Below are positions 13,301 through 49,000 of a stretch of DNA of 64,000 nucleotides, piece by piece (position 1 is the first letter of the stretch; each line of letters starts with the position of its first letter). Made by a program: the position numbers and the translations under genes. The stretch is from Argopecten irradians (lineage: Eukaryota > Mollusca > Bivalvia > Pectinida > Pectinidae): contig NC_091135.1 of assembly GCF_041381155.1 (NCBI RefSeq), positions 8,113,620 to 8,177,619 of the forward strand, read 5' to 3'. The notes below the pieces were generated by a model. That model made no database searches and was not told the DNA's origin. It saw nothing but the letters and a program-made list of their open reading frames with translations.

Positions 13301-16300
13301 CGATAAGAGAAAACTAACCGCTTGCCCCCGTTGGAGTGAGAGAAAAAGCATATCCGGAAAAGATTTTTAGTCTCTGAAACACTGACAATTTAAAAAGCTT
13401 ACCTTTGAGTTGAGATTCCACTCTCACTATAAGAGTGGTTGAAATATTCTATAAATCTCAACTAAAGCCTTGTGTAAGAGTTAAGACTTTCAGCATAAAG
13501 CTTGCTGTGTAGTGACTAGCCATTATATACCAGGTAGTTTATTGTTTTTTTCTCTTTTGATTGGAACCAAATATAATTTTATGGTAAGATTTTTCATTCA
13601 ATTTCTCTATCTTAATTACGTAATCCATGAAATGTGCATCATATTTGAAGTTTTTGATGATGTTATGAGTGATATTGCAATTTTTAAACTGAAATAGAAG
13701 TGCAAACTAGCTGTCAGTTAATCCCAGTAAGGGCTGTTCTAGCAAAACATATATGGCACCCAGGGAAGGCACTTTAAAAAATAGTATGTGCCATGGTGGG
13801 TTCAAAATAAAATCACTTCTGTGCCAGGGTGGCGTTTCAATAAAATCCCTTCTGTGGGTGGGTCTATCTGAAGCATTTGTAACATTTTGAAAGAAAATGC
13901 AAATTTTATATTTTATAATATATATGTTGCTCAGTCATCCTGACTAAAAAAATACAAAAATAAATATTGAAAAAAATGTTAATTTCTGACAATATTTAAT
14001 GTGTTGTTCATCTTCAATAAAAAACAATTATTTTATTTTCTGAGTATTTTGATATAATAATGATAGACTATTTATCTAAAACATATTATATTCATTCAAA
14101 TTTGACAATGGTACAAAGAAACAATAGATTAGTTTTGGCAAAATAACAGATCTTCATTTAAATTCACTGGTATTAAGTCGAGGAAAAAATTGCAGTTCAC
14201 AAGCTTAAGTGTGAATGTTCAGATGTCTACTTTTGCATTATGCTTGCGAAACACTTCAGTATGTTTAGAAGATTTTACGCTGGTTCTACAAGGATTGTAC
14301 CCTTATACAAATTTAGTAGTAGATGCAGCATATCAAACAAAAGTTCACTGCACAATATACAGTGCAATTTTGTCCTAGGACTCTTTGGTGATGCTAGAAA
14401 TCAAAATGTGTAAATCCAAATACACAGGGCTCGAATTTTACATTTTTTGCCACTTGCTAAAAATAGCAAGTGCCATAAATTTTTACTTGCTAAAATATAT
14501 TTTTCACTTATAATTAATGTCCGTATTCAAATTACAGTTTTGTTATATATAAAAACCTTTATTTTTGCATGATGATGTGAGGTGTATAAGTACATAATAA
14601 ATATCAACAATATTACTGTAAGAACTGGGCCCCCATATTTTCCATTACAACAATTTTTCACAATCATTATGCCATTTTTACAGTTGTCCCTGATAAAAAC
14701 CACTTGCTAAAATAAGCAAGTGCATATTTTTTTCACTTGCTATTCTGGTATATCTACTGTCTTGCAAAAAGCAAGTAAAACAGCCTGAAATCCGAGCCCT
14801 GATACAAATCGGAGTGAAATAAAAAATTAAATCGCTTCTATGCCATGGTCTTGTTCACAAAAAAATAGATATGTGTGTGGGTCAACAAAATTGAAAATCA
14901 CTTCTATCGGTGGGTCTCCCAATTTCAAAGTGCCTTCCCCCCCTACCATATGTTTTACTGGAACAGCCCTAAACACTTTGTTGGAGTAATCCTATCAAAA
15001 TATGAAAATTTTACTCTGGATCACATCTTTTTCCCCCTTTTTTTTCAGTGTTTGTGTTTAAACCCTCCAATCCTACCTACGTGTATTCTCAAAGAAATAT
15101 TGGTGATGATATAGAAGGAGCAGCTTTTATTCCTCAACAAAACAAGAGTTCCATTGAACAAGGGGGACAACTTTCGTGGCAGTCAGAATCCCAGTTGTAC
15201 TGGATGACAGAGAACCAGGACTTGATGACCTTGACAAGGGAAGCAGACGAAGAAACAACATTAAAACAGGTACATTCTTCTGCTCATTCCATACCTTATT
15301 TCATATGAATATTCACATAGTTCAGAATACACGGACGTATCAATATTCTACTCTGAAAATTATAAGATTATTGTGTTTAGAAAACTTTCAAAATTATTGT
15401 ATTTAGGCAATTTTTTTCCGTTCCATGCTTTGGCATTTCATTTGAACTACATGTATTTTGGATTTTTATTTCTATACCGAAAAATTTTCCCTTGTTCTGT
15501 TGTTGTGAATATAGGCACCAGTAAGGAAGTTAGTAGCCATATTCTCCTAATTATACATTATGATATTTAATGTCTTTTCTGGTTTTACAATTCTAGATAC
15601 CTGTGAAAATCAACCTTCCACAAACTCCATTCAGTGTCCTACTGTCCAGCGAGCGCAAGAGAGGATTTGAACCGACGGAACATAAAGATTTAGATAGCAA
15701 AGTGTACACAACGGCAGCACAGTTTACGGCACAGGTAAGGGGAAATAAGATAAATTTTACTTTACATTCAGAATTATAATACAGTATAACCCCTCTAACT
15801 CGAACCCGCTTTCCTTGAATAACACCCATTCGTCAAACTTATCTCATGGTCATGACCGTGTCCCTATATATTTCATGTAACAAAACCCTGGATATCTCAA
15901 ACACCTTTTAATCAAATACCCCTTATTCCTCAAACAGAAATATATCCCTGTGTTTAAATCATGTATTCATTGAACAGGCTCCGATTTCTCGAAACAAAAG
16001 TACAGACTTAAGACTTAAGTTTTTCTCCTTATGTAACTTATGTTGATAAAATCGACTTAAGTCAAATTTTGACTTAAGTTTGTTTCGAGAAATTTTCAAA
16101 TGCTCATTTTATGTAATGCATATTTTTTAGCCTATTCAGAAAGTACTAAAGGGATCTTTTTCAAATTTCACATGTAAGTTCCCCTGAGGCCCTAGTTGTG
16201 CATATTGCATTTTAGGACGGATCGGTCAACAAAATGGCCGACAGGCGGCCATCTTGGATTTTGATAGTAAAAGTTTGTTACCGCTAATTCTCAGAAAGTA

Positions 16301-18618
16301 CTGAAGATATCTTTCTCAAATTTTATATGTAAGTTCCCCTAGGACCCTAGTTATGCATATTTTTAGCCCACCATCATCAGATGGTGGGCTAAATCGCCTT
16401 TCGTCCGTGGTCCGTCCATCCGTCCGTTAACAATTCTTGTTACCGCTATTTCTCAGAAAGTACTAAAGGGATCTTTTTCAAATTTCACATGTAAGCTCCC
16501 CTGAGGCCCTAGTTGTGCATATTGCATTTTGGGACGGATCGGTGAACAAGATGGTCGACAGGCGGCCATCTTGGATTTTGATAGTAAAAGTTTGTTACCG
16601 CTAATTCTCAGAAAGTACTGAAGATATCTTTCTCAAATTTTATATGTAAGTTCCCCTAGGACCCTAGTTGTGCATATTACATTTTAGGACTGATAGGTCA
16701 ACAAAATGGCTGAGAGGCGGCCTTCTTGGATTTTGATAGTTAAAGTTTGTTACTGCCAATTCTCAGAAAGTACTGAAGGGATCTTTTTCAAATTTCACAT
16801 GTAGGTCCCCTAGGGCCGTAGTTGTGCATATTACATTTTGGGACCGATCAGTCAACAAAATGGCCGAGAGGCGGCCATCTTGGATTTTGATAGTTAAAGT
16901 TTGTTACCGCTAATTCTCAGAAAGTACTGAAGGGATCTTTCTCAAATTTCATATGTGAGTTCCCCTAGGACTCTAGTTGTGCATATTGCATTTTGGGACC
17001 GATCGGTCAACAAAATGGCTGACCGGCGGCCATCTTGGATGTTGATAGTTAGAGTTTGTTACCACAATTTCTCAGAAAGTACTGAAGGGATCTGTCTCAA
17101 ATTTCTTATGGAATTTCCCCTAGGGCCCTAGTTTTGCATTTTGCATTTGGTAACTGATTAGTCAACAAGATAGCAGACCGGCCGCCATCTTGGATTTTGA
17201 TATTTATCACTATTTGTCAGAAATTATTGAAGGGATATCTCTCAAATTCCATGCATAGGTTCCCCTTGAGCCCTAGTTGTGCATAGTACCTTTGGGACTG
17301 ATCGATCAACAAGATGGCCAACCGGCCGCTATCTTGGATTTCACCGCTGTTTCTCAGAAAGTAATGAAGCGATCTGTCTTAAATTTCGTATGTAGTATGT
17401 TTGAAAAAGTTTGAAAAGCAGGGAAAAGATCCCTCTTTCCATTGTCAGACATAGATCATTCTTTGGTGGGTGCCAAGATCCCTCTGGGATCTCTTGTTCC
17501 AATTTGATATTGCTATCAAAAACCACTTTTATAGTAATTCAAAATGCTGAAAATCATGGTAATTAAAATGTCATTGACACAAATTGTTTGTCATAAACTG
17601 AGACCAGACATTTTGATTGTCGATGATCGTTCATTACCAACTTCGGATGGGTCGAATACTCTGTATTCCTCGGAATGTTGGTCCCCTGTTGTTCGAATTA
17701 TAGGGGTTTTACTGTATTATAATCAAAATAATCAAAACTTCACATCTTGAATGCTTCCAGATAACTGTTCTTAACAATTTTGTCTTGTAAAGAATACAAT
17801 CTTCATATACATGTATTTAGATTGAGCATTACTTGTAGTAATATTTTATTTCAGTTACTGGAGACTGCCTCCCATGTACAAGCCCCTGTGACAAGTTTAT
17901 GTCACACCTTTATAAACTCACTTCTCATCCGTGATGATGCACACAGGTAAGTTGGAAATTCAAAATTATTTGTGTATTTATGCTGCATAAAGCCTTTATA
18001 TATGTTAAATACAACAGTAAGCTGTCATTTAAATGTCGTTTCATTTTTTATTAAGGCCTAGTGAGATATTCATCTTGCATCATTCATGGAAAGAATTTAG
18101 TACTATTTAATGCATCTTAATCTTGATATAAGATCATGGGTTAAATATTCAATTTGCTTTACTAATAACCTGATTTCTGAAATCCACAATTTTATTTCAA
18201 TATTTAACACAACATGTACACACTGTAGATGAACAATGCAATTTGATTTGGTTATACATTGTAGTGAAATGTTGTCTTTGATTCCAGCATAAGTTTGTAG
18301 ACTGATAAAGCAGTCTTCTGTGTGTATACAAATGTTACATTGTATTTGTTATTTTATTTCAGCAGTGGAGAAGAAAGAAAGGATGAAGATGATGGTGATG
18401 CATCAGATGAGGAAGAAAATGTGACAAATTCTGATTCAGACTCGGACATGGAAGTTGATAACAAAGAGGAAGCTGTGGCAAAAAACAATGAAACAACCAA
18501 AGGAAAAGCAGACATACAGAAAATTGAAGGAAAAGGAGACACACAGAAAATTGTGGAACAAGTGGACTTGTGTGAGATTCCCAACTTAGACTGGTACTCT
18601 GCTGGACTTAAAACATGA
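4394..18618 (+). CDS. WDR75: WD repeat-containing protein 75 (UTP17/NAN1 homologue), complete
   Basis: Nineteen exons join in frame to 843 codons plus stop (human WDR75 is about 830 residues): 4394-4497, 5174-5303, 5744-5809, 6226-6316, 6653-6765, 7085-7158, 8075-8164, 8551-8642, 8819-8974, 9329-9522, 10004-10191, 10485-10651, 11043-11223, 12673-12764, 12952-13038, 15049-15269, 15597-15734, 17855-17946, 18363-18618. Every border is GT-AG. Diagnostic stretches shared with vertebrate WDR75 are [25 protein letters not shown]-like [40 protein letters not shown] and LFVFKPSNP. The protein forms WD40 propellers and ends in an acidic Asp/Glu/Ser tail ([13 protein letters not shown]). In the nucleolus WDR75 is part of the t-UTP arm of the small-subunit processome, which supports rRNA transcription and early 18S processing. 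The start has no rival ATG nearby. Introns 1, 5, 10, 13, 15 and 17 carry repeats listed separately. Confidence 0.96.
4794..5121. mobile_element. Inverted-repeat MITE in WDR75 intron 1
   Basis: The ends GGTTGGGCACATGTAAATT (left) and its inverse (right) begin arms of about 55 bp that continue through TAGC-rich sequence. Length is 328 bp and no frame is present. The right end lies about 50 bp before exon 2. Confidence 0.65.
6767..6914. repeat. 33-bp tandem repeat starting at the exon 5 donor of WDR75
   Basis: About four and a half copies of GTAGCTGAAACAACTGTTAG plus ACGACAAGCTTA run head to tail. The first copy begins at the intron's own GTAAGTAG, so the array is built from the 5' splice site outward. 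Confidence 0.85.
7663..8007. mobile_element. TTAA-flanked MITE, copy 1 (WDR75 intron 6)
   Basis: The copy starts TTAA-AGTGAACAGTCGGGCAA and ends with the near-inverse before TTAA; it is about 345 bp long and non-coding. It matches 48209-48553 almost throughout and 27649-28125 more loosely. TTAA duplications fit piggyBac-type insertion, but the terminal repeat is not a standard piggyBac one. It ends about 70 bp before exon 7. Confidence 0.75.
9225..9325. repeat. Degenerate ~22-bp tandem repeat before WDR75 exon 10
   Basis: About five diverged copies of GAGTGTTTATTTTTGACT run up to the polypyrimidine tract of the exon 10 acceptor at 9328, so the array forms part of the 3' splice region. Confidence 0.7.
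9651..9866 (-). mobile_element. tRNA-derived SINE, full length
   Basis: Read on the minus strand it begins GGGGCCGCGGTGGCCGAGTG with a GTGGTTAAGATG A-box region, then the B box GAGTTCGAATCC, then a conserved middle (CTCTGGGTTCTCCGGCTTTC) and the tail GACGTTAAACTAATCAAACC. It shares all parts with the copy at 19962-20180. It lies in WDR75 intron 10. Confidence 0.85.
10757..10833. repeat. Fragment of the hairpin family seen at 37.4-37.56 kb
   Basis: TATGAAAAAAAATTGTTT and GGATTCTCACAAAAGTTTGC recur in the arms of the long hairpin at 37445-37564. It lies in WDR75 intron 12. Confidence 0.5.
11649..12524. mobile_element. Harbinger-like non-autonomous element, copy 1 (WDR75 intron 13)
   Basis: The terminal repeat GGGCTGTTCCAGCAAAACAT has its inverse at the right end (GCTGGAACAGCC), and both subterminal parts carry GAAGGCACTTT. 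It has no transposase frame, is 876 bp long, and its interior is homologous to 13731-14969. A family name beyond 'PIF/Harbinger-like' is not possible by eye. Confidence 0.65.
13731..14969. mobile_element. Harbinger-like element, copy 2 (WDR75 intron 15), with a nested insertion
   Basis: This is the same family as 11649-12524, flanked by TAA at 13728-13730 and 14970-14972, a 3-bp duplication that fits PIF/Harbinger. It is longer than copy 1 because of the insert at 14425-14801. It ends 80 bp before exon 16. Confidence 0.7.
14425..14801. mobile_element. hAT-like MITE nested in the Harbinger-like element
   Basis: It begins CAGGGCTCGAATTTTA and ends with the near-inverse TGAAATCCGAGCCCTG. Inside, several CACTTGCTA / TAGCAAGTG segments form further hairpins. 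The homologous place in copy 1 (about 12330) lacks it. The flanks share ATACA but no clean 8-bp TSD. Confidence 0.7.
15976..16100. repeat. Hairpin repeat inside the Tigger-like shell
   Basis: ATTTCTCGAAACAAA and its inverse TTTGTTTCGAGAAAT bracket a run of GACTTAAG repeats, making a nearly closed palindrome of about 120 bp. Confidence 0.6.
16131..17498 (+). repeat. Minisatellite array A (~154-bp units), Helentron/pearl-like
   Basis: About nine copies, marked by CAGAAAGTACTGAAGGGATC at 154-bp steps, each with GCGGCCATCTTGGATTTTGA. A hairpin (TAGCCCACCATC / GATGGTGGGCTA) at 16373-16391 interrupts the array after two copies and looks like the 5' end of a second element. The 3' end is the hairpin GATCCCTCTGGGATC followed by TCTTGTT. 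Such arrays are known from bivalve pearl/Helentron elements; the assignment is inference. Confidence 0.7.
18363..18368 (+). promoter_or_regulatory. NAGNAG tandem splice acceptor at the last WDR75 exon
   Basis: The last intron ends CAGCAG (18360-18365). Both AGs keep the frame; choosing the second drops one serine just before the acidic tail. Similar sites are often spliced both ways. Confidence 0.6.
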
Positions 18619-23998: not shown

Positions 23999-26900
23999 TC
24001 ATTCAAGATAAAGAGATTTAGTCAAAGTTGTCCATGTACATGGCATCTGTACGGAGGTTTCTCTTACCATACTGCCATCTTTATCTCTCAATAATCTCGG
24101 CATACGATACTTGTTTGTGTGAGCGAATGTGTATCTAACCTTCATAAGCATTGTCTCCACAGAATCTGACCGGTAGTTGTCTTGGAATTGACTGACCACT
24201 TCCTGGAGGAAATGTGAGCCAGAGGACTGGTCTCTGAATGACAGGAAACCTGGAAAGAGAGTACCATTGCTATCAATTTTGATTTTAGAATTGATCCTTG
24301 GTTAGAATTTTGTTAAAAATAACATCATTTAGTTGTCCTAGACTGAAACGAGAAGTAATGGGCATATTAAATTTAAGTGAGTCATTGGCTTACACTTCTT
24401 GTTTTACAGTGTATAACCTACTCTCTGGAACAGATTGTGATAGAGTTACCTACCCTTGGAATCAGGTTTTGATTCATCCTCGATACTCTAGGGGTTCCAT
24501 TATACGACTCTTTTGATGTACATCAAAAGACTCAATTACCTGTTCTGTTGCCTCCAGTTTTACTATGAAATAGTTCAGGGGTGTAGAGATTGTAAGTGAT
24601 CAGAACCCCTGGAGTATCGAGGACGGTTTTGATTGTAAGTACAATATTTGTGATAGAGTTACCTACCCTTGGAATTGGAATTTGATAATAAGGTCAATAT
24701 TTGTGAGAGAGTTACCTACCCTTGGAATCGGATTTTGATTGTAAGTTCAATATTTGTGAGAGAGTTACCTACCCTTAGAATTGGAATTTGATTTAAGTTC
24801 AGTATTTGTGAGAGAGTTACCTACCCTTGGAATCGGATTTTGATTGTAAGAGCAATACTCTAGAATATTATAAGGTTTTTGGATTTTTGGTCCAACATAT
24901 AGAAAAGCCAATGATAATGTATTTTAAGGCTTTTTATCTGACAGATAGAATAGCCAATTGTAGAATATGATCTGACCAGGAGTAGTAGCCCACATGATGA
25001 GTAACTCAGCATCTACTGGGATGGATATTCTCACAGAAGCAGGAGGAATGGTTGTTCCCTGGGGCTCTACCTCCATAGGATCGTCGTCCGGAACTACTTC
25101 CCCTTGGGTTTGTTTGCCTCTACAAGCCTGTACCCTTTGGTTTGTCTAAATAAAACAACATAATCCATTATACATGGTTCGCACAGATTTTCAAACCAAA
25201 TTCAGCACTTTTCAAGCACTTTTCCAGCACCTTTTCTAGATTTTCAAGCACTACTTTTTCTTCTACATTGGACTTGAAATCAGAATTTCAGAAAACATGC
25301 TACAATTTTGCAAGCAATTGTTAGTACAATTTGTAAGAGTAATTAGATTCAATTACACATTCTTATCAAACAACAAGTCAAAAACTTACTGGATTGTGAC
25401 AACAAATAAAAAAAGCACTTTTAATGACCCATTCAAGCACTTTAGGACCCCAAACTCCAGCAACTGTACGAACCATGTTATAGGAAGAACTGTGATATTG
25501 AAACATACGCAAAGAAATAACTTCATCTATGGTACAGATTCTTTGAACCATACACATCAATACTTTAATCTTTTTATTTATCTTTTAATTTAATTAAATT
25601 GATTTTATTTGATTATTTGTTTGCCTCTAAGAGCCTGTACCAGAAACCCCATGGTGCTGTCTCAAATAAAATCAAAATATTCATAATTCTCATACACATT
25701 CAGTAGTTATTTTCATCATGCACCGTCCGTCGTCGTGCGCCGTCTGCCGTCCACCGTGCGGTAACTTTTCATTCTAACAACTTCTTCCCAATAACCAGAA
25801 GGCCAAGGGTACTGATATTTGGCCTGTAGTATGCTAGGATGAAGGGGTACCAAGTTTGTTCAAATGAATGACCTTGACCTTCATTTAAGGTCACAGGGTC
25901 TGTGGTATAATATATATAAATGATAAGAATTTTAGAGTTTGAAATTTGGACTCATATATTATTATTTACATGTGCGGCTTTCAAGTGAATATGTTACATA
26001 GTGTAGGTCAAGCACATGTGTTTCATATTTACAATAGTATATGTACGTACATGTAAAGTCTATTGGAAACCACCTTCTGTTAGGGTCATTGTATAACTAC
26101 TAATTACATAGCCATGTTGTTAATTATGATACAGGATAAGTCCTAATGATTAACCATGTTTCACTATGTTATACAGCAGCTACATTGGTATCAACTGTTC
26201 CAGGTATTGGGTATCATACCCAAATATTGACATATCTTATCCCGATGTACTGCTATATTAACTCGCCAATAATCTCTGTACAGAATCGATTCCTAAGACT
26301 CCAATAAACGTATCGTACCATTCACTTAATCTGCGTTGGAGTTCTACATCTACACACGCAACAACCTACGAAACTACATCATAGGTCAAATAGGCTAAAA
26401 TCTTTAAGCAACTTCTTCTCAAGAACCAGAAGGCCCAGGGCACTGATATTGGGCCTGTAGCATGCTGGGATGAAAGGCTACCACGTTTGTTCAAATGAAT
26501 GACCTTGACCTTCATTCAAGGTCGCAGTGGTCAAAAAGGCTAAAATCTTTAAACGACTTCTTCTCAATAACCAGAAGGCCCAGGGCACTGATATTGGGCC
26601 TATGGCATGCTGGGATGAAGGGCTACCAAGTTTGTTCAAATGAATGACATTGACCTTCATTTAAGGTCACAGGGTTCAAATAGGCAAAAATCGTTTAAAC
26701 AACTTCTTTTGAATAACTAAGAGGCCTAGAGACCTGATATTGGGCCCTTGACATCCTTGGATGAAGGGCTATCAAGTTTGTTCAAAGGAATGACCTTGAT
26801 CTTCATTCAAGGTCACAGGGGTCAAAAAAGCTAAAATCTTTAAAAACAACTTCTTAAGAACTAGAAGGCCAAGGATACTCATATTGGGCCTGCAACATGA

Positions 26901-29900
26901 TGGGATGAAGGGCTACCAAGTTTGTTCAAATGAATGACCTTGACCTTCATTCAAGGTCACAGGGGTCCAATAGGCTAAATTCTTTAAGCAACTTCTCTCA
27001 ACAACCAGAAGGCCCAGGGTACTCATATTGGGCCTGTAGCATGCTAGGATGAAGGGCTACCAAGTCTGTTCAAATGAATGACTTTGACCTTTATTCAAGG
27101 TCGCAGGGGTCAAAAAGACTAAAATCTTTAAACAACTTCTTCTCCAGAACCAGACGGCCCAGGTTACTGATATTAGGCCCTTGACATGCTGGGATGAAGG
27201 GCTACCAAGTTTGTTCAAATGAATGACCTTGACCTTCATTCAAAGTCACAGGGGCCAAAATGGCTAAAATCTTTAAATGACTATGTTGTATTGTGCCAAT
27301 AGTCAGATGACCGTTAAGGCCCATGGGCCTCTTGTTATTTGGAACATACCGTAATTTTCTTGTGATTATACTCCCATTGTATGAAACTTACCTGCAAATG
27401 TATTTATTTCATCATTTTTAAAAAAGCTGAAAATCCTGTCGTATGGGTATGTTTGTTTTTCCTCCTTTTCATTCATGGAATCATGTGGGTATATCCCTTC
27501 CTGTAACAGAACAGTGAGATAACAAACTGAATAACATTTTCTGCCAGTCTATACAAGTTCTAATGTCATCATACTAGAACATCATTACCTTATAATAAAA
27601 CAAGATATGGTTTGATTTGATTACTTTAACATCCTAGCCTAGGTCATTTAAAGTGAATATTCCTTTTGACCATTGAAATCATGTAAAAGCCCCGTGTGAT
27701 TTAAGCACAGTTATAACTATAAATTTGTACAACTCTTTAAAAGCAAGGCTGCGTTGAAATGTCAGCAAGGACATAGCCAGCCGAGAAGGTATTTTAGGAT
27801 TCCTATTCCGAATTTGCATATTACAGAGTTATCTGCACTTGCGGGTAGGTATTGATTGTGAGTCATGTGTTTGTGATCATAACGTCATACGTTTCGGAGA
27901 AAACAATGTGAATTGTGCTCACAAAATAATGACATAACAATCGATACCTACCCAAAAGGGAGCAAACTCTGTAATATGCAAAGAAGGAATAATAGAAATG
28001 AGTTTCTTCACATGCAGAGCAATTTTGATGGGATTTTTTTTTTTCTATTTCATAAGAAATTATAGTAGATATCTTTATGCCATTTTTACTGACTTAAGCC
28101 TTCCTCTGCTTGACTATTCCAGTATTATTCCAGAAAGTGGAACTTAATAAGAAGTCTTAAATAGGTCTGTCATTGGAAAATTGTGATTGGATAATTCTAC
28201 GTAACGGCCACCACAACTGCTATGGCAACACATTGTTTATTTGTGTGCCAAAAAGAAAAAAGAAGAATCCTTCACAAGATACAGTTGAGAAGATACCTTA
28301 TTTCCATGGCTCATAACTGTCACCACCAGACAGTAATACTTGTCAGCTGTTTCACTATCACAGAGACGTTCCTGCAAGCCTCCCAAATATCGGTCTAGTT
28401 TGTCGTATGTCAAATCTTGTCGAGTTTCCACTTCCCAATGTAGATTGTCTTTGAAAAATCCCTTCAACTGCCTCTCATCTTCCAATGTACCTAAACAATT
28501 TCAACAGAGAATAACATTTGAACAAAAAAAAATCACAGAAAAATTTAGATACTGCCACCATGAATTCCATTGAAACAGTTGATGATACCAGTTGTACACA
28601 TAAGTGCTGACCAAATCTGTAAAAATTTCAGAAATTTAGATATACAATGTACTATTAGTCTTTAGTATATTCAATTAAGAACCATAGCTACATATAAAAT
28701 TTAATATTCATTCAGCATTCCCTGAAAAACAGTAACAGTCTACATTTGTCAAAATAAACATTGGTGTCCTGATCATGATGGCTTGTTCTTTCTGATCACC
28801 CCAAAAAAAGGATTTACATAATAAGGAAAACAAGTGGGACCTGGATTTAAATTCTGAGAGGAATCCTAGACTAGTTGTCACATTACCTGCTCTTTTCTGT
28901 GTGAAGTTGAGAATCACCAATAACCCTTTTTTACCGTCACTTTTGTACTGGTAAGTGCTGTCATCACTTTCGTTACCTTCAAAAGAAAAAAAAGGATGTG
29001 ATACCTTCTTATTCATCACACAGTTAACCAAGTATATCAGAGACTGTGTGGTGAGGTAAGTCCTAAACTTTTTTATCAAACGCTTTATCTTACGCTATTT
29101 GTTCTCGTCAATAAAATGAAAACTAATAACAGAACAATAATTAATACCCGATTTGTAAATGACTCCTTTCTAAAAATATCCAACCACACTTCTGCAATCC
29201 CGTTTTTCAAAGATTAGCGATGATGGTTGCTTTTAAAAATTTTCTACCCTGATTAAAATATATGTAGATTGATATTCTTACTAACTCATGATAATATAGC
29301 AGCCAGACCAGGGCTCGAACCAGGACCTCCAAACACCAGCCCCATGCTCTACCATTTGAGCTACCTGGTCATCAATGTCCGCTACACTCCATTTGATTTT
29401 ATAGAGGATCTGAAAATTTCCCATCTGGGGTAACATTTTGGTAACCTTTAGCTCTTGCACCTGGCTAAATGAACTGAAAGCAAATTTTGTTCCAGCATGC
29501 TTTTCACCAAAATTGCTCATTTTCAACATGAGATAAATTCTAATGTTCTATTGCCACATCAGATTGGTTACATACACACCTTGAACTCCTCTCCCACGTT
29601 TTGGAGGTTGAGGTGAGTCAGGTATACCTGTAGAGGATCCAGACTGTCCACCTGTCAAATCATGTAACCATAGTGACAACAACATATCATAAATCATTAT
29701 AACATAGATGGCATAAGTTACAAACATACAGGTGTTCATGAGTAAGATACATTGTAGAAGATGTGGAGTACATTTTACAATGGAATCTGCTTTAAGTCAC
29801 ATTGGTTAATATCACATTTTCTTTAATATCACATTTTTTGATGTACCCATTTGGTGTATTTAAATATATTAATTCTTTGTATTGTCACAAGTGACATTAT

Positions 29901-30793
29901 CACTTACTTCTTTCATAAAACTACTAAATATCACTTTATCTGACTTACTATAATGTTGTAAGTTCCTAAAACCATACCCTAGGGCATTAGTTGATATGTC
30001 TGACCTATATAATCAATATGTCATCCTATCAACATTTATAACTGAGACATTGTTCAAAAAATAGATTTTTTAAGTTACCAGAACATTGTTATCTAACATT
30101 CAAATTGATTATGTATGATAGTAAAAAAGTCACTTTTTGGTGCATGAAAAGGGACTGAAAATACTTTCAACTTTTAATGTTACACTCTGCTTAATATCAC
30201 ATTTTATGACATTAAGAGGAATTCTACAGTACTAAGGAAAACACTTGAAAAAATGTAATTTATTTATAAACAAACTAAATTATTTGAAAGGTTGAAAATG
30301 CCCAGCTTGATAGTTTTGTAACAATTAATTAGAGTATTTTTTAAAATTATCATTTCTACTTCTGATATAAGAATTTTTTACCTGTGATAGTGGCGGGTAC
30401 ATTAAGGTTTCGTTTACGGCTGCTGGGCGGGTGAGAATCACTGTGGGTCTCTTCCTCGGGCGATTGATTGGCAGATTTTGGTTTTATATTGTCTATGTCT
30501 CTTTCAGCTTCTTCGATTATAGCCAGCAATGGAACGTTAAATTCTTTTATAATTTTCTTCAAAGCATCATAATTTCCTATTCTAATTTTACCTTTTTTTT
30601 CTAAACTCTGAAACACTGATAATGCATTAATAGCTTCTTTGATAACAATTGGTTTAACATCTAAGGCCCGACAAGAGTTCAAGAACTGTTCAAATTCTTT
30701 TTTGTTCACGACGGCATCAAAATGGTCGGACAGGTCATTGAGAAGTTTTGTATGGATTCGTTTCTCGTCTTCACTCGGGATGCGTGTTGCCAT
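23999..30793 (-). CDS. Caspase with a single death-effector-like prodomain; frame broken in the catalytic exon
   Basis: Seven exons on the minus strand: 30793-30382, 29651-29580, 28976-28887, 28490-28297, 27500-27392, 25145-24977, 24249-23999. The start at 30793 has a strong ATCACCATGG context. Residues ~15-95 resemble a death-effector domain (LSVFQSLEKKGKI...LLAIIEEAERDI). The protease part shows GLLVILNF, RAG..ED (S1 arginine), MSHG (catalytic His), QACRG (catalytic Cys), PVDAELLIMWATTPG and SFRD..SGSHFLQ of the small subunit, ending KSLYLE. Caspases are Asp-directed cysteine proteases of cell death or immunity. Exon 5 ends in phase 1, and exon 6 then opens with the expected KPK, but its QACRG is two frames off: about 8 nt are missing between them. 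As read, the normal splice gives a stop inside the QACRG region. A weak donor 20 nt downstream in intron 5 would restore the frame. Sequencing error, a null allele or a recent pseudogene are all possible. Confidence 0.88.
24436..24860. repeat. ~54-bp tandem repeat in the last caspase intron
   Basis: Five copies of GAGAGAGTTACCTACCCTTG plus GAATCGGATTTTGATTGTAA occur. The first is separated from the others by the MITE at 24475-24625. Confidence 0.8.
24475..24625. mobile_element. MITE with C(A/G)TCCTCGATACTC ends, inside the tandem repeat
   Basis: CATCCTCGATACTCTAGGGG and the inverse of CGTCCTCGATACTCCAGGGG bound a 151-bp element. GTTTTGATT stands on both sides (24466-24474 and 24626-24634), a 9-bp duplication. 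A 9-bp TSD would fit Mutator-like elements. Confidence 0.65.
25172..25479. mobile_element. MITE with ACATGGTTCG(C/T)AC ends, upstream of the catalytic exon
   Basis: ACATGGTTCGCAC and its near-inverse GTACGAACCATGT bound about 308 bp with repeated CAAGCACTTTT motifs inside. It ends only about 26 bp from the acceptor of caspase exon 6, so it may crowd the branch-point region. Confidence 0.6.
25617..25660 (-). pseudogene. Decayed duplicate of the caspase catalytic exon
   Basis: On the minus strand an acceptor-like TTATTTGAG is followed by a frame reading STMGFLVQALRGKQ. This has the normal caspase spacing before the active site but Leu (CTT) where the catalytic Cys (TGT) should be. Homology to exon 6 covers GTACAGGCT.TTAGAGGCAA and the intron end, then stops after AAACAAA. 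No donor follows, so it is probably not spliced as a working exon. Confidence 0.65.
25735..27336 (+). repeat. Minisatellite array B (~146-bp units), Helentron/pearl-like
   Basis: About seven copies are marked by GACCTTGACCTTCATTCAAG with AACCAGAAGGCCCAGGG at 146-147-bp steps. A unit at 25770-25915 is separated from the rest (from about 26385) by ~470 bp of unrelated sequence. The 3' end is the palindrome GGCCCATGGGCC followed by TCTTGTT. It fills most of caspase intron 5. Confidence 0.7.
27607..27655 (-). mobile_element. SINE tail fragment
   Basis: GGTTTGATTTGATTACTTTAAC, followed by a stretch like GGTCATTTAA, matches the tail of the SINE at 9651-9866. Confidence 0.45.
27649..28125. mobile_element. 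TTAA-type MITE, copy 3, split by a second MITE
   Basis: The ends TTAAAGTGAATATTCC and a matching inverse, plus GGCTGCGTTGAAATG, ACATAGCCAGCCGAGAAGG and TTTCTATTTCATAAGAAAT, are the inverse of the copies at 7663 and 48209. It is more diverged and interrupted at 27803-27991. It lies in caspase intron 4. Confidence 0.65.
27803..27991. mobile_element. MITE with TATTCC...GGAATA ends, copy 1 (nested)
   Basis: The arms TGCATATTACAGAGTTATCT and CGGGTAGGTATTGATTGTGA are mirrored at the right end. Relatives are 40800-40989 and the worn copy at 61744-61942. Comparison with the uninterrupted element at 7663 places the insertion after CCTA, with TA on both sides. Confidence 0.75.
29304..29370 (-). mobile_element. 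tRNA-derived SINE head or tRNA relic
   Basis: On the minus strand GTAGCTCAAATGG (A box) and GGTTCGAGCCC (B box) stand at tRNA spacing, with a pairing D arm (GCTC/GAGC). The anticodon stem does not pair, and the 3' acceptor strand overlaps the T arm, so it is not a working tRNA gene. Confidence 0.55.
29777..30222. mobile_element. Possible Tc1-mariner-like MITE in caspase intron 1
   Basis: The imperfect ends ATGGAATCTGCTTTAAGTCA and the inverse of TAGAATTCCTCTTAATGTCA enclose repeated TTAATATCACATTTT motifs. The borders are soft. Confidence 0.35.
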
Positions 30794-30864
30794 GGTGATG
30801 TGTGTCAATCAAGATGACCTTTGAAACAAATATTGTAAAGAAACGTAAGTCAGTAGATATAGAT

Positions 30865-31737: not shown

Positions 31738-32333
31738 TAGTATTTAGAAATACTACAGCAGCTTGACGGTCTGACAATAATACATTTATACTATACATAT
31801 CTAGTACCCCTACTACTATATTATTTATATAGTATATATGGGGGTAATTTTCATAACTCATAATTATAGATACATTACAGTAGTCCCGCGTTGAACAACA
31901 ATTACGTTCAAAACCATTACAGACATGTAGGCTACTCCAACAATGTTAGAGGTATAGCACGACGAGACACTTTTGGAACATTACGTCGTGTCTAAGCAAA
32001 GTAACGTCCGATAAAAAAAACAGCTGACCAGTCGACTCTCATGTTATGGGAGTAATATGTAGGCCAACCTCTTATTAGAATGTGAAAGTTTACCTGGTAG
32101 GTGTTGCCAAAATGTCACACGTTTTAACCGATTTTTGAAGAATACACATATGTACGAACAGTTTGAATTCAGTCCGGTATTACCTCACTTCCGAGAAATC
32201 GTATCTTAAGCCTGTAGGGCATTTGAATTAGGGTTGTAAATTGGGCCGACACCGAGTTAAAAATAACTGGGGTGTCTGATTTCTCGTAGCAACCGGTGTG
32301 GATTCTAATGACCTCTTATGAATGTTTTGTTTA
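31738..32333 (+). repeat. Tandem triplication, unit A (both target sites empty)
   Basis: It begins TAGTATTTAGAAATACTACA. The two sites that carry insertions in units B and C are empty here: CTTCCGAG once at 32188-32195 and ATCTTAAGC once at 32203-32211. It has ~134 bp between two ATGTAGGC repeats that B and C lack, and lacks ~30 bp present in them. No coding frame. Confidence 0.85.
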
Positions 32334-32659
32334 TAGTATTTAGAAATACTACAGCAGCTTGACGATCTGACAATAATACATTTATAGTATACATATCTAG
32401 TACCCCTACTACTATATTATTTATATAGTATATATGGGGGTAATTTTCATAACTCATAATTATAGATACATTACAGTAGTCCCGCGTTGAACAACAATTA
32501 CGTTCAAAACCATAACAGACATGTAGGCCAACTTCTTATTAGAATGTGAAAGTTTACCTGGTAGGTGTTGCCAAAATGTCACACGTTTTAACCGATTTTT
32601 GAAGAATACACATATGTACGAACAGTTTGAATTCAGTCCGGTATTACCTCACTTCCGAG

Positions 32660-32772
32660 CACAGGCGTCTGCATTTGGTTTTGGAAAAATACAATGTCCT
32701 ACCCCTACTATATGTTCATATAGTAGGGGTAGGTTATTATATTTTTTATCAAACCAGAAGCAGACGCCTGTG
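32660..32772. mobile_element. hAT-like MITE 'CACAGGCGTCTGC' in unit B
   Basis: CACAGGCGTCTGC is perfectly inverted at the right end. The core holds CCTACCCCTACTATATG and its inverse. The TSD CTTCCGAG (32652-32659, 32773-32780) is perfect, and unit A shows the empty site. Confidence 0.9.
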
Positions 32773-32796
32773 CTTCCGAGAAACCGTATCTTAAGC

Positions 32797-33307
32797 CAAT
32801 CTCTCCCAGAGTGCATTGCGGTTACCTTACCAAGGATTTATAAGTGAGAAGGATTCGTGTCTGTCTCTTTACACTACTAAACACCACGCGAGACGCTTAT
32901 GAACCGGGAATAGAAACCGTTTTTCTCAACAAATACTTGTCTTATCGAGTCAAACGAAACGTCAATGTAAAGTAAATTAAATTTCACAACGTTTATAACT
33001 TGCTTTAAAGACGGAAGATTTAGAAGAAATGTCTTAAACTATCGTTAAAAAAATACGACCGCTCATGAAATGGCAGCACGCTTCAGAAAGTAAGACGGTA
33101 ACCCTCGCACCCCCATGCTACATCAAAGGCTGCGGCGGCGGATATCAAAGGAAATCAGTCGTCGCCCAACGTCACGGTCAGTGCACAAACACAAAAGCGC
33201 CTGCGCTGTCTTTGCCCAAAACTCAGTGTGACTTATCCTTCTCATATACGTCCTTGGTTTAACATAAACATATGAAGGGTAACCGCAATGCACTCTTGGA
33301 GAGATTG
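32797..33307. mobile_element. Mutator-like (9-bp TSD) element in unit B, long form
   Basis: The ends CAATCTCTCCCAGAGTGCAT and the inverse of CAATCTCTCCAAGAGTGCAT run on through GCGGTTACC. The TSD ATCTTAAGC is perfect (32788-32796, 33308-33316). The 440-bp interior is GC-richer than its surroundings around 33060-33240 and holds a 65-codon frame without recognisable domains. A 9-bp TSD suggests Mutator-like; captured host DNA is possible. Confidence 0.75.
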
Positions 33308-33788
33308 ATCTTAAGCCTGTAGGGCATTTGAATTAGGGTTGTAAATTGGGCCGACACCGAGTTAAAAATAACTTTAACGTTTTCAAAAAGCAATAACTGG
33401 GGTGTCTGATTTCCCGTAGCAACCGGTGTGGATTCTAATGACCTCTTATGAATGTTTTGTTTATAGTATTTAGAAATACTACAGCAGCTTGACGATCTGA
33501 CAATAATACATTTATAGTATACATATCTAGTATCCCTACTTCTATATTATTTATATAGTATATATGGGGGTAATTTTCATAACTCATAATTATATATACA
33601 TTACAGTAGTCCCGCGTTGAACAACAATTACGTTCAAAACCATAACAGACATGTAGGCCAACCTCTTATTAGAATGTGAAAGTTTACCTGGTAGGTGTTG
33701 CCAAAATGTCACACGTTTTAACCGATTTTTGAAGAATACACATATGTACTACAGTTTGAATTCAGTCCGGTATTACCTCACTTCCGAG

Positions 33789-33901
33789 CACAGGCGTCTG
33801 CATTTGGTTTTGGAAAAATACAATTTCTAACCCCACCTATATGTTCATATAGTAGGGGTAGGTTATTATATTTTTTATCAAACCAGAAGCAGACGCCTGT
33901 G
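33789..33901. mobile_element. hAT-like MITE 'CACAGGCGTCTGC' in unit C
   Basis: It has the same ends and the same TSD (CTTCCGAG at 33781-33788 and 33902-33909) as in unit B, so the insertion predates the duplication of B and C. Confidence 0.9.
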
Positions 33902-33925
33902 CTTCCGAGAAACCGTATCTTAAGC

Positions 33926-33998
33926 CAATCTCTCCCAGAGTGCATTGCGGTTACCTTCATTTATGAAGGGTAACCGCAATGCACTCTTGGAGAGATTG
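33926..33998. mobile_element. Mutator-like element in unit C, short palindromic form
   Basis: Only the two terminal repeats remain, meeting almost head to head at CTTCATTTATGAAGG. The TSD ATCTTAAGC is kept on both sides (33917-33925, 33999-34007). Confidence 0.85.
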
Positions 33999-34220
33999 AT
34001 CTTAAGCCTGTAGGGCATTTGAATTAGGGTTGTAAATTGGGCCGACACCGAGTTAAAAATAACTTTAACGTTTTCAAAAAGCAATAGCTGGGGTGTCTGA
34101 TTTCCCGTAGCAACCGGTGTGGATTCTAATGACCTCTTATGAATGTTTTGGACAACTTTTATGTAAAAATACATTCAATAATAATATTCATTTCACGTGT
34201 ATAATATGAGGCCTACTCAT

Positions 34221-43013: not shown

Positions 43014-46000
43014 CTAAGCTACAGTAATTTCCGCTGTGATGGGAGACGATTCTGCTATTTTCTTCCCTTCCTCTGTAGGTTCCATTTCCTTTGTTGTCTC
43101 TACTTCTTTCTCCACTTCTTTCTCTACTTCTTTCTCCTCACCTTTCTCAACTACTTTCTCCACTTCTTTCTCCTCTTCTTTCTCAGATTCCTTTACGTCC
43201 TCTTTGACAGCATCACTCACCTCCTTTACCTCTTCTTTCACTTCCTCTTCTATCTTTGTGTCCTTCACCTCTTCTTCTTTCCCTGTATCCTTGACGTCTT
43301 CCTCATTCCCAGAATCCTTCACTTCTTCCTTTGATTCTTCTGTCTTGTTTTCAGTAACTTCTTCTGGTTTGTCGTCCTCGTCAGCAAATTTAATTTCATC
43401 ATCAGTTTTATCTTCTGGTTCTAGAAAAGAAATCAAATATCAAATATTGAAGTTTTAAACGAATATCCTTGAATGCCTGTGTACCGATTCCCTTTCAGAA
43501 CTGTCATAAAGTCACATCATCATTTAGTTAAAATTTACAACAGTATATCATTTTTAAAAGTGGTACTTTATTCAACCCAATAAGTGCCTACGCCAAACGC
43601 CCTGGGTACTTATTGGGTCGAATACATCATTCATATGAAGAATAGTATATGAACTTGGTTTGAACACATGCTTGAGCTTTTTTTATAAAATTAAAAGTGA
43701 TGAGTTCTAGCTATTGAGGTCATTAGGTTAGTTACTTCATGAATACCAACTATTGAATTATTGTGTAGATGAATTCAAGCTTCTGCCTATCATGGGTCTT
43801 AGTGGCCGAGAGGTTGAAATGTCAGATGTTTTATTTTATTCCGGAATGAAGGTTTGAAACCAAACTGGAGCAAAGGTTGGTGATTTTTTTTCTAGATACC
43901 CTTTCCAGATATAGTTTGGCATAAAGAAAAAAAGTAGCTGAACTTCTGAGGTAAACTTTGCCGAATCCTCTAAAATTGATACCTCAGATTTTATGGTTTC
44001 AATATCTATTGATTTCAAAGTCAAGCTAGGTGATTTCATTTTAAATACCTGAAAAAAGGCTGATCAATAGTAAGTTAATGTTTATCTATATATCTCACCT
44101 TTGTTCTCCTCCGTCGCTGCCTCATTGTCTCCACTTGGGCCAGCTGTTTCCTCTGGAACCACAGCTTTCTTTCCCTTCTTTGACTTTTTAGGGCTTGGTT
44201 TGGGTTCCTCAGGGGGAGGGACAGGTGCATCAAGAGGTTCATAACCTTCCAAGTGACAGTAGCGGGCACTCAGCTCGTAAACTGCCGCCTGTAGCTCTTC
44301 ATTTCTCGACTCCTCCGAGGATACGGTCTCTACCATATCCTTGTAATATTTACCTGTCACACCTGAAATTAATTACGTAAAGAAGTGATTAAATTCACAC
44401 TATACCTAACTAGCAGCAAAATGTCAAGTTAGATTTGACCCTGATATTGTTGGCATTTGTAGATGTAGTTAAAATTGAGCTATATCAAAGAATATTGATA
44501 ATGATTTCTCAATTAATTTGATACAGCATTTGAAAGTCGATGCATGTAAACATGATCCATTCTTGGAAGAGTTTGAAAAGACATTACGTAGTTAAGGTAG
44601 ACACCTGGTGTTCTCGGCAACAATGATACAATGTCTGCTACCTTCGCTTTGTTTGAAAAGTGGGACCCACTTAGCCTTGTTCAATATTCATTTTGATTTT
44701 TTTTATCAAAATTTCAGAATCGCTACTGTCCATCTTGACTTCAATTTAGTCCTATCTCTGCAAGATTTACAACAGGATTTTTTTTTCAAAATTCTTCTGA
44801 ATCAAGAAGAAAATCAGACAGACACAGATAGTTTGGGCCTTTAATACGGAAAATAATTCTGAATAATAGTGATAATCAATTTCTGAATTTGCTGAAATCG
44901 TAAAGTCTGCGAGAAACACAGTAATATACATCTACATAACTGACCTTTAAACTCTTCGTTTACAATCAGGTCCACCACAGCTTTAGCACCGTCCTCTAGG
45001 GTCCTGACAGGTTTAAACACTGGGCGCAGCATGGTACCAAGAATGTATCGTATAAAAAACTTCTGGCCACTGCCAGCATGTCGACATAGCTCTGTACTCG
45101 GTATGAAACCTGAAACCAATTTACTTATTATTTATAGACTTCTTCTTCATTGTAAGATGTAATTTATGTTGTTTTTTTCCCCCCATTGAAGTTCAATGAT
45201 GGATAAAATATTGTCATAAATGATAACAGAGGCCCAGAGGGCCTGTATCGCTCACCTGGTTTAAAATGCCAAGTAATGTTCTGAATACAGGTCTCATTGT
45301 TTCTTTTCTGAAGGAATTTTAATATTAACCTCTAAATCCCCTATTTGGCCCCACCCCTCCCGCCCCCAGGGGGTCAGAGCCAAAATTTATACAAGTTCTG
45401 TTCCCCTTCCCCCAAGGATGTTTATGGCCAAATTTGGTCACAATCCAAGCAAAACTCTAGGACAAGAAGTGATTTATAGGATTTACTCTATTTCCCCTAT
45501 TTGGGGGGGGGGGGGGGGGGGGAGGCCCCACCCGTCCTGCCCTCGGGGGGCCAGAGTCAAAATTTATACAAGTTCTGTTCCCCTTCCCCCAAGGATGTTT
45601 GTGGCCAAATTTGGTTACAATCAATGCAGAACTCTATGACTAGTAGCGATTTAAAGGATTTACCTCTATTTCCCCTATTGGGCCCCGCCCCTCCTGCCTC
45701 CGGGGGGTCAGAGCCAAAATTTATACAAGTTCTGTTCCCCTTCCCCAAAGGATGCTTGTGGCCAAATTTGGTTACATTCCATTCAAAGCTCTATGACAAG
45801 AAGCGATTTAAAGGATTTACCTCTATTACCCCTATTGGGCCCCGCCCCTCCTGCCCCCGGGGGGTCAGAGCCAAAATTTATGCAAGTTCTGTTCCCCTTT
45901 CCCCCAAGGATGTTTGTGGCCAAATTTTGTTACATTCCATTCAGAACTCTATGACTAGTAGCGATTTAAAGGATTTACCTCTATTTCCCCTATTGGGCCC

Positions 46001-49000
46001 CGCCCCTCCTGCCCCCAGGGGACCAGAGTCAAAATTTGTACAAGTTCTGTTCCCCTTCCCCCAAGGATGTTTGAAGCCGAATTTGGTTACAATTTATGTA
46101 GAACTCTATGACTAGTAGCGATTTAAAGGATTTACCTCTATTTCCCCTATTGGGCCCCGCCCCTCCTGCCCCGGGGGGACCAGAGCCAAAATTTATACAA
46201 GTTCTGTTCCCCTTCCCCAAAGGATGTTTGTGGCCAAATTTTGTTACATTCCATTCAGAGCTCTATGACAAGTAGCGATTTAAAGGATTTACCTCTATTA
46301 CCCCTATTGGGCCCCGCCCCTCCTGCCCCGGGGGGTCAAGCCAAAATTTTATACAAGTTCTGTTTCCCCTCCCCCAAGGATGTTTGTTAAAAATAAATGA
46401 CTGATAATTATTTATTTTGTTATCAAGCAAATATCTTGGTATGAGCACTGTAAAGTTTATTCTGCTGTTCCATTATCTTCATGGGCCTGAAGAACGTCAG
46501 AACTGTGTCCTTATGATAACTGAGAGATAAGGGATTTGCATACTGATAGGCTTTAAAACTATGCTTATGAAATCAAAACTTCAGCTTCTTATCTGCATGA
46601 TAGTAGCAAGTACTAATGATGTATAGTATTAATATCTAACTAAACATATATAGAAATCCATTATATATCATTCCTGCTCGTATCTGAATGTAGCCATAAA
46701 TGAGTTAATGACATGTAATTTTCAATTTCAATTACTTACGAGATAAGTTAATATCTATGATAATCACTGTATAGATTATTAACATACCTTTTTGTTTTTA
46801 TTCAAGGCCAAACAAAAAATATATCTGTTTAGGGTTAACCGACCAACCCTAATTCCCCCCCCCCACTTTTTTTATGAAAAAAATTTAAAAGTCGCGATTT
46901 CAATATCAAACTCCGGTTCCGGCCATTATTTTAGAGTGAAAGACACTAAAAAAAAAAAAAAAAAAAAAAAACATGCCAACCTACCGACCCTTTTTTTTGC
47001 CAATGTAACCCTAAACAGACAAATTATTTTTTTGGCCTAATGAACAGTTTTAATCACATATTTCCAACAGATTATATAGAGTTCTGATTCATCTGTTCAA
47101 GGCCTATATAAAAAGATAATAGAACCTATATAAAAAAGATAATAGAACGACAGAATAATTCAGACTAGATGCCATGATATTACTGGGAACACTAGCTTCT
47201 TATGATGGCCTCTCAGCCAATAGAAACTTTGTAAGAATCAGAACCATCAATTCAATATCTGATATGTTTGTTGATGACTTACCTGGACAGACTGTGTTGA
47301 CCGTTACACCTGTGTCCTGTAGCCGCTTAGCTAACTCGTATGTAGTCATTACCATGGCAGCTTTAGAGTTCTTGTATCCCAACTGGTTGTTGTAGGTACC
47401 TTCCTTCTCCATAAAAAAATTCTCCACGTCAAATGCCTGCCCTGATTACCAAAATAAGCAATTTGTTAATATAAAGTAAAACGTGGACTAACATTCAGTT
47501 CAACTAATTAATGTCAAATTCCCATTTTATGGTGGCGGCACGAGAGAATTGTTAAATATTTCATATGAAATTTGGTATCAAGATCTGTTAAATCTGTGAC
47601 TGAATGTTCTTGCCTCTGAACGAGATTTAGAGCATATTAAAACTTTCAGAAATCATCAATCAGTTTGCTCATGATGGTCAACTCAACAAAACTGCAATCA
47701 GTGGTATCAATGTTTCAGATTTAGTAGACCTTTCAAACAACCTTGGGCTTTCTAAGAGACAACCAATTAAAATCACTTTATAACAAGTTTCAACTGAGCA
47801 ATAAAATACATCGTAACATCATTTTATCACACAGAATGTGTATGGGTGAATCTTTATCGTTGAATTAACTGTGATTTTATTCTTGTGATATCAACTTACT
47901 CCTTGCAGCATTCTTTGGGGGAGATGCTGGATCATGAAGGGACGATGTTACGTTGATGATACGGCAATCAGCCTCGCCCTCTGCTGCGGTCTTCTTCAGA
48001 TCCTCCAGTAATAGATGTGTCAACAGAAATGGCCCTAAAACATGACAAGACACGATTATTTACATGTACTTCTTTTTTTGTCTATTCTATAGGGACGGTA
48101 TGTGCCCAAATGTACCAGAACTGATTGTAGTAATCTCAGGAATAACAGGAGACAAAATGAATCTAGATACATTCCCTTATGATATATATTACTAGCAAAA
48201 CCTTAAACTTAAAGTGAACAGTCGGGCAAGAATGGCTAAAGTCGGTAAAAATGGTGTGAATGTATCCAGTATAACTTCTTATGAAATGGAAAAATAAAAT
48301 CTCTCGTCAAAATCTGTCTGCGTACGAAGAAATTAATTTAAAGTATGGAAATTCTAAAACATCCTCCCGGCTCACTATGTCCGTGGTTACATTCCCACGC
48401 AGCCTCGCTTTCAATGCTTTCAACTTTTCTTTACTTTAATGGTCAGAACTGGGAAACTAAACAGAACTTGACCGTCGTATTAATATGTGAGAACTTTTGG
48501 AAGGCCAATGAACGCATTTAGACTGGTTTTCTTTGCCCAACTATTCACTTTAATATTCTTAATAAACTGTTTAACTTGATACTCTGATGCTTTGATTTTA
48601 TCATACAGCATCAATTTCGACCGTATCATTTAACACATCAGTTCCATATACGTGTTAACTTTTTAGACTTTTTATATTATTCTGAGAAGATCACTTTTAT
48701 TGAAGATAGCAAAAGTAAGTTCCTTGTTATATTCAAGGTATAGTAGGGACATCTCAGAAATGTATATACATATTTTGAATATTTCTATTTTTTTATGATA
48801 TAATATTGTGTATAATTGTTACCAAATGTAATAAAGAATTTTTTTCTCCATTTCTGAATTTCACAGAATTCATAGATATAAAAAAATAGATTTATCAGTG
48901 GATTGTTTGTCAATCATCTCATCAATAAGATGGTAAGATTAGATAACCATACCAAGGTGATTAGTTCCCATGGTGAGCTCAAAGTTATCGGCTGAGAATT

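Follow-up and report, generated by a model that had tools for sequence, protein, structure and literature searches.

The half-kilobase segment triplicated in tandem at positions 31738-34150 is a case of ordinary transposon stratigraphy, although not quite as it was first read. To judge from comparison with the dispersed copies of each family, unit C holds the usual form of the palindromic element E2 and unit B the same element with a second one nested in it, which is the reverse of the internal deletion proposed by the first-pass annotation. The window, that is, the whole stretch of 64,000 nucleotides that was analysed, corresponds to C2:8113620-8177619 of an 846-Mb assembly of 1508 contigs. 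The tandem units are designated A, B and C, X denotes the putative precursor of B and C, and TSD stands for target-site duplication. The features considered here, all on the forward (+) strand, are the following.

31738..32329 (+): unit A, composed of the backbone and E4, without E1 and E2
31925..32064 (+): E4 in A, a 122-bp element (31933-32054) between ATGTAGGC repeats (31925-31932 and 32057-32064)
32188..32195 (+): empty E1 target site CTTCCGAG, single in A
32203..32211 (+): empty E2 target site ATCTTAAGC, single in A
32333..33460 (+): unit B, composed of the backbone, E1 and an E2 carrying the nested 426-bp element
32652..32780 (+): E1 in B, a 113-bp miniature element (32660-32772) with the 8-bp TSD CTTCCGAG
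32788..33316 (+): E2 in B, with the 9-bp TSD ATCTTAAGC around arms 32797-32828 and 33272-33307
32831..33256 (+): 426-bp element CAAGGA...TCCTTG nested in the E2 of B, from a separate, young dispersed family, here without TSD
33257..33271 (+): filler of 15 bp, GTTTAACATAAACAT, separating the 426-bp element from the right E2 arm
33374..33398 (+) in unit B, with 34065-34089 (+) as its counterpart in unit C: tract of 25 bp flanked by AATAACT repeats, lacking in A according to the backbone alignment
33464..34150 (+): unit C, composed of the backbone, E1 and a full-length 73-bp E2
33781..33909 (+): E1 in C (33789-33901), with its 8-bp TSD
33917..34007 (+): E2 in C, a 73-bp hairpin (33926-33998) with the 9-bp TSD ATCTTAAGC
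about 34217 to at least 35000 (+): another dispersed repeat, outside the array, starting ~65-70 bp to the right of unit C

The triplication is genuine in the assembly. Three direct units followed each other in tandem, and the shared backbone reported by the first-pass annotation was recovered in all of them. Once the inserts were removed, it measured 460 bases in A, 486 in B and 484 in C. Unit divergence was 1-2 %, ten sites being variable among 459 gap-free columns, and the backbone likeness was far beyond chance. Five of the variable sites set A against B and C, four set C apart and one set B apart; the distances amounted to six (A-B), five (B-C) and nine (A-C) differences per 459 columns, with overlapping intervals. 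Beyond these ten sites, the units differed by the 25-bp tract missing in A, by a single B/C difference within that tract and by a 1-bp gap in C. The junction between A and B and that between B and C displayed the same sequence, GTTTTGTTTATAGT, and the array was bordered by TTTACATAGT on the left and GTTTTGGACAA on the right. Genome-wide, full-length matches to the backbone were confined to the three local units (40 of 41 candidates scored for the left part, three of three in the other search). A satellite or a large transposon family was ruled out as the nature of the backbone, since no full-length match was found elsewhere in the assembly. The first ~100 bp of the unit resembled an old dispersed palindromic element (71-82 % identity). 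Given the low divergence of 1-2 %, the population may be polymorphic for the array.

The sites CTTCCGAG and ATCTTAAGC occurred once each in A and were duplicated around an element in B and C, exactly as previously described. E1, the first of these elements, was 113 bp long in both units and formed an imperfect hairpin. With 40 of 541 candidates scored, at least 38 other places harbored it. An exact TSD of 7-8 bp was displayed by 22 of the 28 fetched copies, compared with ~1 % at 7 bp among mismatched flank pairs taken as a control, some loci being copies of each other (TATGTAT was encountered three times). In the left hairpin arm of the E1 copy of C, five private substitutions were clustered in a stretch of 17 columns, an arrangement expected with a probability of ~0.001 for five random sites. 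At those 17 columns the copy of B agreed with the family, and the pattern in C was of the kind left by a template-switch or conversion event.

E4 was present in A alone among the three units, its right ATGTAGGC repeat being preceded by an extra AT. At least 40 other matches were found (40 of 1305 candidates scored). Five of nine full-length fetched copies displayed an exact TSD of 9 bp, a tenth, partial copy being left out, and no mismatched pair matched above four bases in the corresponding control. The element ends encountered at the locus were CAAGGA...TCCTTG, CAATCTCTCCC..., CACAGGCGTCTGC and TACTCCAAC. Neither E4, nor the 25-bp tract of B and C, nor the composite nature of the E2 of B had been listed by the first-pass annotation, which credited A with the ancestral empty sites. 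A does hold the empty E1 and E2 sites, but with an insertion of its own, E4, and without the 25-bp tract it is not wholly ancestral.

In agreement with the first-pass annotation, the E2 of B measured 511 bp and that of C 73 bp. The copy of C was a near-perfect palindrome, for which folding of the single strand yielded -35.4 kcal/mol (z -15.35), with none of 200 shuffles being as stable. The family was dispersed: scoring of 40 of 73 candidates gave at least 79 matches, most places being counted once per strand. All 16 other full-length copies fetched were 64-92 bp long, in a sample of best matches to the 73-bp query that favours short forms. Five of the 16 were flanked by an exact TSD of 9-10 bp, five displayed one with a single mismatch (by eye) and six had none that was clear; among mismatched pairs, 0.8 % matched at four or more bases, half of these over 9 bp and probably originating from related loci. 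At 11 other places among the matches listed, a single arm was matched over at most 55 of 73 bases, and longer E2 forms are thus possible elsewhere. Two of these 11 places were inspected, both at C1:7725600-7729450 (L066), which had looked like a promising candidate for an autonomous partner of E2. It proved to be a tandem repeat of 3692 bp in which each unit holds a single E2 arm, its sole domain match was to a DEAD helicase, and its interior contained no inverted partner arm at up to four mismatches.

Between the E2 arms, unit C displayed the five loop bases CATTT, and unit B displayed AC (32829-32830), the 426-bp element and GTTTAACATAAACAT, the last without counterpart in the E2 of C. The 426-bp element was thus situated at the tip of the E2 hairpin, and 426 of the 511 bases of E2 in B belonged to a separate dispersed repeat. 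With the whole of unit B as query, at least 43 near-full places were found elsewhere, 39 of them at 97-100 % and four at 91-92 %, along with at least three partial ones (40 of 2377 candidates scored). Near-full matches started within 7 and ended within 18 bases of the element's own termini; none of the scored matches extended over the E2 arms, nor was E2 seen by eye in the 30-base flanks of 17 fetched copies. These 17 copies, from 16 loci, displayed an exact TSD in 16 cases (7 bp in 13, 8 bp in three), the remaining one agreeing at six of seven bases by eye, and in the control only 0.7 % of mismatched pairs matched over 4-5 bases and none over six or more. The copy of B had no TSD: its left flank, ACCTTAC, and its right flank, GTTTAAC, were alike at three of seven positions. 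It differed at two of 426 sites from the majority of 14 ungapped copies, three gapped ones having been dropped. Some copies of this family were encountered as close pairs (C15:14084346-14085198, C6:34925640-34926516, C1:8981471-8982766 and C5:12279958-12280968), lying a few hundred bases apart in the same or opposite orientation, with one member at 97-99 % and the other at 91-92 % relative to the query.

These observations bear directly on the length difference between B and C. Had E2 originally been 511 bp long, as the first-pass annotation supposed, unit C would have lost its interior, and internally deleted derivatives are indeed common among DNA transposons. The E2 ends and the TSD are common to B and C, and the 11 single-arm places leave room for a longer E2, though not for one with this interior. 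This reading nevertheless appears extremely improbable. All 16 other full-length copies that were fetched were of the usual 73-bp form, and the loop of one of them, L010, was identical to that of unit C save for one lost base C. The interior of B moreover belongs to a separate dispersed family that has ends and TSDs of its own, and among the 40 candidates scored no match joined it to E2 arms elsewhere.

E1 and E2 predate the duplication that produced B and C, because both copies carry them with the same TSDs. Descent of B and C from one copy already holding both elements, another earlier proposal, was upheld: the E2 arms of the two units were identical across 68 bp and shared a missing base C and a G-to-T change relative to most family members (by eye). 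It had likewise been claimed that the locus records which of the two elements was inserted first, but E1 and E2 lie side by side, un-nested and equally shared by B and C, so that their mutual order is not recorded. The nested element is later than E2 and, by parsimony, later than the B/C split. E4 belongs to the lineage of A. The 25-bp tract was either lost from that lineage, or never present in it, or else gained by the other; these events cannot be placed relative to E1 and E2. Since one and the same junction sequence separates A from B and B from C, while the array edges differ, the second duplication would have reused the junction created by the first, as in-register unequal exchange would. 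The intervals of the backbone distances overlap, so that, judged from substitutions alone, the B/C split is not clearly younger than that of A. A crossover chimera of A and C as the origin of B was ruled out: sites setting C against A and B and sites setting A against B and C alternate along the unit, and B is therefore not a simple A/C chimera. A runs test on the variable sites gave P = 0.29, obtained from an earlier alignment with an error close to the E1 site.

Taken as a whole, the following history is, in our opinion, very probable. A single-copy half-kilobase segment would have been duplicated in tandem between non-homologous ends. The miniature DNA transposons E1 and E2 would then have entered one of the copies, X, or the allele from which it arose. 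The other copy, A, would have received E4, the 25-bp tract having been lost from it or never present. X would subsequently have been copied in register into B and C with reuse of the unit junction, as by unequal exchange. Finally, a 426-bp element of a young third family would have been gained at the tip of the E2 palindrome in B, C keeping the canonical 73-bp E2.

Other histories differ from this one mainly in how the units came to share their elements. A and X may have diverged as alleles, the array being formed by unequal exchange between the two; a unit divergence of 1-2 % falls within the allelic diversity of highly heterozygous marine invertebrates and is compatible with such an origin. 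This is rather doubtful, the locus having been found once in the assembly. Gene conversion could also have carried E1 and E2 between units. In the version in which the triplication came first and the two elements, having entered one unit, reached its neighbour in this way, the A-B, B-C and A-C backbone distances would be expected to be alike, as they are within error. A single conversion tract would then have to take in both elements, the 25-bp tract and the backbone sites between columns 32 and 440. As this is almost an entire unit, such a conversion would be a duplication in effect, and we regard this version as unlikely. Even less probable is an assembly artefact in which collapsed or joined haplotypes gave rise to a false third unit. 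The units differ at an allelic level and the assembly alone, rather than the reads, was examined, both of which would accommodate an artefact; however, private changes were present in each unit and private inserts in A and B, the B/C junction was exactly that of A/B, and the searches yielded no further copy of the locus on any other contig. The stepwise duplication of X into B and C remains the preferred account.

Within that account, the 426-bp element could have reached B by either of two routes. It may have transposed into the loop, its flanks being reworked later on both sides, or it may have been captured during repair of a break at the hairpin tip without transposing. In the repair route, an extruded 73-bp palindrome would have broken at its tip and lost five loop bases, the gap being filled by a 426-bp element along with pieces of the sequence that formerly flanked it (AC to its left, GTTTAACATAAACAT to its right). 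We put this forward tentatively, as a possibility on the weaker side of even. The missing TSD counts against normal insertion. The AC left of the element corresponds to the last two bases of GTTTAAC, as capture would leave, although two bases prove little. An assembly-wide search for a donor, in which the 15-bp flank and the adjoining 8 bases of the 426-bp element were matched with up to two mismatches, retrieved B itself only, and so did a search for a long-loop E2 variant holding most of the 15-bp flank and an E2 arm with up to three mismatches. No donor and no E2 ancestor with a variant loop thus turned up in the assembly; the donor may be polymorphic.

The surroundings of the array contained further repeats and a candidate gene. 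The dispersed repeat on the right of unit C displayed 84-95 % identity to at least 39 other places (40 of 61 candidates scored). Tandem arrays at 16136-17341, 26384-27277 and 45324-46387 differed in their consensus units, with a period of ~145-157 bp and a higher-scoring dimer of 289-315 bp. Two minus-strand open reading frames, 23999-24301 (-) and 30356-30808 (-), matched a caspase domain (E 5.7e-8) and a death effector domain (DED; E 4.1e-5, below the Pfam cut-off) and perhaps belong to one predicted DED-caspase gene. Its likely ATG was situated near 30793, the triplication lying ~0.95 kb upstream.

E1, E2, E4 and the 426-bp element all resemble MITEs in being short, dispersed and of fairly homogeneous length, with TSDs and inverted termini or hairpins. 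In the case of E2, dispersed copies of homogeneous length, a TSD of fixed length and a hairpin were found; TSDs were likewise found at dispersed copies of E1, E4 and the 426-bp element, the last family also displaying its own termini. TSDs of 9 bp are a class feature of Mutator-like MITEs, and those of P elements are 7-8 bp long. E2 and E4 share the 9-bp TSD with the former group, a likeness in TSD length. TSDs of 8 or 9 bp are mentioned for the hATm group in PMC6004678, so that 9 bp is not exclusive to Mutator-like elements, and the same source mentions 8-bp TSDs for hAT elements. E1 and the 426-bp element, whose TSDs are 7-8 bp long and whose termini begin with CA, are comparable to hAT or P-type MITEs, their TSDs being mostly 7 bp rather than the 8 bp mentioned there for hAT. 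A considerable proportion of MITEs is mentioned for bivalve genomes in PMC10294476. The stratigraphy of nested transposons is an established method, of which REANNOTATE, as introduced in PMC2672092, is an example. The order of events was likewise obtained here from nesting; in contrast to the approach as introduced there, a tandem duplication supplied the empty-site outgroup within one genome. In titles and abstract openings of the transposon/MITE and palindrome-repair literature, no description of this locus was found.

Tandem copies of this kind provide the empty-site controls for which a second species is usually required. They also indicate that a length difference between tandem copies is easily mistaken for a deletion unless the extra DNA is checked genome-wide. 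The missing TSD at the palindrome tip is the only part of the locus that might lead further. If it does reflect capture at the tip, miniature palindromic transposons would be docking points at which repair plants other transposons without TSDs, and a genome-wide count could test whether miniature hairpins seed further insertions.
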